From a bacterium (GTDB lineage Bacteria > T1Sed10-126), in the NCBI GenBank assembly GCA_003554945.1, contig PWHN01000110.1:1-61596 (forward strand): 61,596 nucleotides of DNA, in the 5' to 3' direction. The notes beneath the pieces are model-generated. The model was not told where the DNA came from and made no database searches. It worked only from the letters and a program-made list of their open reading frames with translations. Position numbers and translations under genes: made by a program. Below are positions 27,966-32,459 of the stretch, one piece after another. The first letter of the stretch is position 1, and every line of letters begins with the position of its first letter.

Positions 27966-28143
27966 TCCGTCATTTCGGCCAACGAGCCGGAAAACACCAG
28001 CATAAAGCTCAAAGCCAAAAGCCGAAAGCTAATTCAAATTCATTAAGTGCTCATAATCTTGTTTATGTTCTTGAACTTGACCTTGATTTCCTCGAACTTT
28101 CGCCTCTTCGCCGGCTCGCCCCTCCGCCCGGTTGAAGTGGGCG
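27966..28143 (+). repeat. Left copy of a repeat flanking the 28156-31841 gene pair (uninterrupted)
   Basis: The copy begins with GTCATTTCGGCC...GAGCCGGAAAACACCAGC, continues through AAAGCTCAAAGCCAAAAGC, then GAAAGCTAATTCAAATTCAT and CTCATAATCTTGTTTATG, and ends near a hairpin CCGCCC...GGGCGG (about 28122-28143). The right copy at 31924-32340 has the same parts in the same order but is split by an insert. The identity is high enough to be obvious by eye. Confidence 0.75.
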
Positions 28144-31923: not shown

Positions 31924-32340
31924 CTCGTCATTCCGGCCTCCGAGCCGGAGAACACCAGCTTAAAGCTCAAAGCCAAAAGCTGAAAGCTAACCCGGCCTAT
32001 GCATGAACCTTATGCATAGGCCGCCCAAAGGGCCGCCCATTCGTCAAATGGGCGGGGTTAACCCAGCCGTTTACAGAACAACTGGTAAGTTACTGTCTGT
32101 GTAAATAACTGCAATAGTAATATTTTGTTTAATGCCCAACAAGAAGCCTATAAACGGCTGTCCTTCGGACGGATAATTCACGATAGTTGTGCTGTCGTGA
32201 ATTATCAGGGCTAATTCAAATTCATGAAGAACTCATAATCTTGTTCATGTTCTTGAACTTGACCTCGATTTTCGGTCTTGCGCATCTTCGCCTGCTCGCA
32301 AGCTCGCCTCTTCGAGCACCCCGGCCTCCGAGGCGAAATT
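31924..32340 (+). repeat. Right copy of the flanking repeat, split by an insert
   Basis: 31924-31990 matches 27966-28032 (GTCATTCCGGCC...GAGCCGGAGAACACCAGC, AAAGCTCAAAGCCAAAAGC, GAAAGCTAA). The match resumes at 32215 (TTCAAATTCAT, CTCATAATCTTGTTCATG, TTCTTGAACTTGACC) as in 28033 onward. The two copies lie in the same orientation about 3.95 kb apart. The whole 31842-32662 gap (about 820 bases) is made of repeats and palindromes; I find no gene in it. Confidence 0.75.
31986..32214 (+). mobile_element. 219-bp palindrome-rich insert with 5-bp target duplication
   Basis: Compared with the uninterrupted copy at 28028-28032, the repeat is broken right after GCTAA (31986-31990), and a second GCTAA (32210-32214) sits at the other junction. 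The 219 bases between (31991-32209) are nested palindromes: CGGCCTATGCAT...ATGCATAGGCCG near 31993-32023, CCGCCCATT...AATGGGCGG near 32033-32055, CAGCCGTTTACAG (32064) with CTATAAACGGCTG (32148), and GATAATTCACGATAG (32172) with CTGTCGTGAATTATC (32192). No reading frame of note. It looks like a small non-autonomous element. Confidence 0.65.
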
Positions 32341-32414
32341 GAAAGGGTTTACAAGATTTGAGGTTTTCTTGATTACTTGTACATAGTCCGGTAAAATTAT
32401 TTTCACCATTTTAG

Positions 32415-32459
32415 CCCGGATAATGCACGACAGTTAAGCTGTCGTGAATAGTTCAGGCT
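32415..32459 (+). repeat. Short hairpin element, relative of the insert's right end
   Basis: CCCGGATAAT precedes CACGACAG (32426-32433), a TTAAG loop and CTGTCGTG (32439-32446). The CCCGGATAAT...CACGACAG end is close to the end of the insert at 32172-32206 and to the ends of the element at 45262-45390, so the three appear to be one family. Confidence 0.65.

Follow-up and report, generated by a model that had tools for sequence, protein, structure and literature searches.

A dispersed family of short palindromic elements flanked by YTAR duplications in the bacterium T1Sed10-126: a probable MITE family

Within the 61,596-nt stretch of DNA analysed here (the window; contig C34 of a genome in 121 contigs, 2.2 Mb in size and 93.5% complete), one repeat is present in two states, raising the question of what separates them and how the difference arose. 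At 27966-28143 the repeat runs unbroken through ...AAAGCTAATTCAAATTC..., while a second copy at 31926-32299 is interrupted by a non-coding insert with a strong fold and reads ...AAAGCTAA[CCCGG...CAGGG]CTAATTCAAATTC..., breaking off after AAAGCTAA and resuming at CTAATTCAAATTC. An earlier note on this DNA had regarded the two as an uninterrupted and an interrupted copy of the same sequence; aligning both confirmed this, and 29 further empty copies were found. From the evidence below, we consider the insert to be a member of a MITE family mobilised in trans by a DDE transposase that would target YTAR sites and generate a 4-bp duplication, a reading based on sequence to which we assign a probability of roughly 0.88.

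Structure and boundaries of the insert

The earlier description of the insert as gene-less and palindromic was upheld. No open reading frame of at least 80 aa was found within it, and its predicted RNA fold (-98.5 kcal/mol, against -59 for shuffled sequences; z = -10.0) and DNA fold (z = -8.8 against shuffled sequence) are both exceptionally stable. Placing its ends was less straightforward, since the GCTAA shared by the two junctions permits two parses: a body of 219 bp with a duplication of 5 bp, or one of 220 bp with 4 bp duplicated. The right ends of other copies in the genome have GG or GGG as their last bases, with YTAR following immediately, and the base preceding the left YTAR varies among copies (T, C, A, T, A and T in C37, C100, C105, C14:10421, C63 and C117:74444, respectively). 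Because of this variation the duplication is read as 4 bp and the G as the last base of the element; a 5-bp duplication was rejected, as other intact copies lack the extra G, the match at this locus being a coincidence. The earlier note's insertion footprint thus stands as a target duplication, of the 4-bp CTAA in place of 5 bp. Likewise, its left end at 31991 is retained whereas the right end moves from 32209 to 32210, giving a 220-bp element between two CTAA copies, and of the GCTAA that it had placed outside the insert only CTAA derives from the target (Table 1).

Table 1. Coordinates of the element, its parts and the surrounding repeat in the window.
Feature	Position	Strand	Basis or comparison
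Outer repeat, uninterrupted (empty site)	27966..28143	+	sequence reading; alignment of copies
Outer repeat, left part	31926..31990	+	91% identity to 27968-28032
Left target site duplication CTAA	31987..31990	.	sequence reading and comparison with other copies
Probable MITE, 220 bp	31991..32210	+	ends placed with reference to 11 further intact copies
Left terminal repeat CCCGGCCTATGCATGA	31991..32006	+	end profile
Left terminal hairpin	31993..32023	+	sequence reading, folding and stem-pair comparison
Internal hairpin CCGCCCATT/AATGGGCGG	32033..32055	+	folding and stem-pair comparison
Core between inverted repeats CAGCCGTTTA (32064-32073) and TAAACGGCTG (32151-32160)	32064..32160	+	sequence reading; RNA fold
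Right terminal hairpin	32172..32206	+	folding; compensated changes among copies
Right terminal repeat, reading inward CCCTGATAATTCACGA	32195..32210	-	end profile
Right target site duplication CTAA	32211..32214	.	sequence reading and comparison with other copies
Outer repeat, right part	32211..32299	+	87% identity to 28028-28119

Copies, targets and ends across the genome

Searching the genome with a 229-bp query returned 46 matches, and the inclusion of two related variants as queries raised this to about 57 distinct places occupied by the element or its relatives, falling into at least three families; this count is a lower bound, as copies were gathered by search and by stretches. The copies are dispersed, mostly intergenic and coding-free. 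Reading of their flanks identified 12 intact elements at 10 independent sites, with bodies of 133-248 bp, and in all 12 the same YTAR tetranucleotide is present on the left and right, so that the duplication which the earlier note proposed to look for at other copies is indeed found at these, at 4 rather than 5 bp. On the strand as assembled, the ten sites comprise TTAG (five), CTAA (three), TTAA (one) and CTAG (one); given this mix of four variants, agreement between left and right at every site has an exact permutation p of 2e-4, the matched sites having been selected for both ends being intact. CTAA is also found at both sides of the C117:81925 copy. Imperfect duplications occur at degenerate copies, including C95:63394 (CTAA/CCAA), C32 (TTAA/TTTA) and C106, as expected for older insertions.

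The origin of the tetranucleotide is indicated by five copies in which the same right hairpin sequence is followed by CTAA, TTAA, TTAG, TTAG and CTAG, respectively; the left ends in that family vary in the same way, a pattern that insertion with a 4-bp stagger would give. As identical right hairpins adjoin all four variants, YTAR is derived from the target and is not carried by the element. This bears on two alternatives. A Tc1/mariner- or IS630-type MITE, duplicating only the 2-bp TA and carrying the outer Y and R as part of itself, would account for the TA core common to all targets, but the Y and R at both sides change with the target among near-identical copies; a TA-only duplication was rejected on the basis of the four matched YTAR variants, and we regard such an origin as very remote. 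In a REPIN- or IS200/IS605-like system, an HUH (Y1) enzyme would recognise single-stranded hairpins, and YTAR would be a cleavage tag without duplication. The strong DNA fold is in keeping with this, as is the presence at each end of a hairpin whose foot bears a tetranucleotide, an arrangement shared with GTAG-tagged REPs (PMC3733652). Unlike the fixed GTAG tag of REPINs, which involves no target duplication and falls outside the YTAR pattern, the tetranucleotide of the present element is direct, occurs in four forms adjoining one and the same right hairpin, and is always identical on left and right, making a REPIN-like origin improbable.

To characterise the termini, we built an ungapped profile from 18 ends, both left and right and drawn from all families, which were aligned from YTAR inward. 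This profile is informative for 16 bp and drops afterwards, defining a degenerate 16-bp terminal repeat, CCYGRNYWATKCAYGA, common to both ends; an initial view that the left and right hairpins share nothing beyond CCCGG proved wrong in its light. Left and right repeats agree at 10 of 16 positions in the window copy and at 14 of 16 in C63, falling to 5 of 16 in the C95:6154 copy when compared without gaps. Each end then continues as its own inverted copy to form a terminal hairpin.

The stability of these folds raises the further possibility of a structured RNA element, acting as a terminator, mRNA stabiliser or small RNA, that is maintained for the sake of its fold and has spread only as a secondary effect. 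Besides the RNA fold itself (z near -10), the proximity of copies to gene ends would fit this explanation, as would seven stem pairs with compensated changes among nine family-1 copies, which offer weak evidence of selection on the fold. Yet the total covariation term is nearly zero, Rfam yielded no match above threshold (only sub-threshold chance matches), and the exact duplications of the target, together with the empty sites, can only be explained by insertion. We consider this explanation highly improbable as an account of the copies; any host role for the fold would come in addition to insertion.

Several observations concern the placement and remnants of the element. The YTAR motif contains a stop codon on both strands, and the C111:18159-18325 copy (L018:1404-1570) lies exactly on the TTAG at which two convergent genes end, encoding a PLP-dependent enzyme and a zincin-like peptidase, the duplication leaving each gene its stop. 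The C95:6154 and C63:26799 copies touch a stop codon on one side. A mosaic copy, C40:1-137 (L036), combines a family-3 interior with a family-2-like right end, which suggests recombination between families at a shared hairpin. Solitary single hairpins related to one element end, flanked by near-matching YTAR, were also identified at C117:79542-79584, C108:5029-5076 and 32406-32452 of the window; these might represent what deletions left behind, or else mobile units of minimal size.

Empty sites and spread of the composite repeat

The outer repeat, too, is dispersed: it has a modular make-up, lies between genes and gave at least 54 matches when the genome was searched. Alignment across the insertion point showed 30 copies (the left one of the window and 29 elsewhere) to be empty, and as the sequence runs on unbroken in every one of them, presence of the insert is the derived condition. 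Three outer repeats are filled, namely the window copy, C14:32084 and C14:40022, so that the insertion is probably not private to the window. All three carry the element at the same outer-repeat position, differ from one another by 2-3%, and have in common two private substitutions that are absent from six other family-1 copies. Sharing of both the site and the private mutations suggests that there was probably a single insertion into the outer repeat, after which the composite spread as a unit or was propagated by conversion; independent hits on a hot spot at this position are less likely. Occupation of one site in three copies would also be accommodated were the filled state ancestral, the 30 empty repeats having lost the element by deletion between direct CTAA copies. 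However, with 30 empty copies against three filled ones that form a close group, and with the same element flanked elsewhere by other sequence and other YTAR variants, this scenario is barely credible.

Candidate helper and relationship to known elements

Bacterial MITEs are defined as short, gene-less and dispersed sequences with terminal repeats, a target duplication and a stable fold (PMC10969869, PMC3733652). The present family is short and non-coding, with terminal inverted repeats, a 4-bp duplication, and dispersed copies with empty sites. It resembles RUP, Correia/NEMIS, ERIC, bcr1 and QMITE2 (PMC10969869, PMC3733652) in being non-coding and within the 70-300 bp range, in its terminal inverted repeats, duplication, intergenic location and strong fold, and in its presumed dependence on a helper in trans. 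Unlike in those MITEs, each end here forms a hairpin of its own, in which the terminal repeat is followed by an inverted copy of itself, the duplication is a 4-bp YTAR, no parent IS was found, and there is no sequence match outside the genome: searches of 58 other genomes, GTDB contigs (by pattern), viral contigs and plasmids, from which records of the genome itself may be left out, did not recover the element. As far as the searched collections show, the family appears to be new, although of an ordinary and well-known kind.

That the insert would need a helper in trans, as the earlier note proposed, agrees with its lack of a gene; the helper itself we infer, none having been found among five transposase families. 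Models PF01609, PF13546, PF13586, PF13359 and PF13701 detected only one clear DDE transposase in the genome, on C115. Its 388-aa product is IS4/IS701-like, single-copy and below family cut-offs, and it initially looked promising owing to a weak IS701_3 match, an adjoining family-1 MITE copy (L004), and the exactly 4-bp target duplications of the IS701 family (PMC2266710). It belongs to a complete, single-copy, IS4-like insertion sequence of 1607 bp (L052:1577-3199), with terminal repeats CACAACTTTCTAACG / CAGAACTTTCTAACG, ends CA[CG]AACTTTCTAACG and an 8-bp duplication, TTTTTTGC; with these unrelated ends and this duplication of its own, it was rejected as helper or parent. A homologue in a sister genus (one genome of the same family compared) has similar ends and a 7-bp duplication, and one sister-genus contig (L161) carries a pair of diverged homologues, oppositely oriented; a scan of genome contigs with the C115 transposase found no relative. 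The 4-bp duplication is shared with IS701, but the published IS701 ends, ---YACT-Y (PMC2266710), differ from those of the element, and no IS701 transposase (DDE_5, PF13546) was found in the genome. A YTAR target duplication is characteristic of the IS5 group of the IS5 family (PMC10359306), a likeness to the 4-bp YTAR duplication here that concerns the target. Unlike what would be anticipated of an IS5-derived MITE, none of the Pfam models tried (PF01609, PF13586, PF13359) identified an IS5-like gene in the assembled genome. By this analogy, a DDE transposase with IS5-like YTAR specificity is the most likely candidate helper, and we file the family as a MITE of unassigned parent, with IS5-likeness as a lead.

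No autonomous partner with the same ends was found in the assembly, which is 93.5% complete and has contigs broken at identical copies. Among the approximately 57 places, 31 lie within 300 bp of contig ends, where 3% would be expected, and the frequency with which contigs stop inside elements exceeds by a factor of about 16 what the elements' share of the sequence predicts. The presence of nearly identical copies at contig ends points to recent activity and, since such young copies broke the assembly, the bin may well lack an autonomous copy.

Under the MITE reading, a DDE transposase supplied in trans would bind the terminal repeats, cut the element out or copy it, and join it to a YTAR site by a 4-nt staggered cut, fill-in of which would yield the 4-bp duplication. 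What is primarily recognised would not be the hairpins, which would represent the terminal repeat copied in inverted form onto itself, and the window copy would have spread jointly with the outer repeat around it. We think it unlikely, by comparison, that a transposase of a still unidentified type acts on self-palindromic hairpin ends in this isolated lineage, requiring secondary structure beyond the 16-bp repeat, with a YTAR target that permits landing on stop codons harmlessly.

Together, these findings describe a high-copy MITE radiation, with exact ends, empty sites and a rule for the target, in a lineage of which hardly any relatives have been sequenced. Its apparent recent activity implies a helper specific for YTAR, either present today or present in the past, and if it is true that this enzyme needs the hairpins, that would be unusual for a DDE system.
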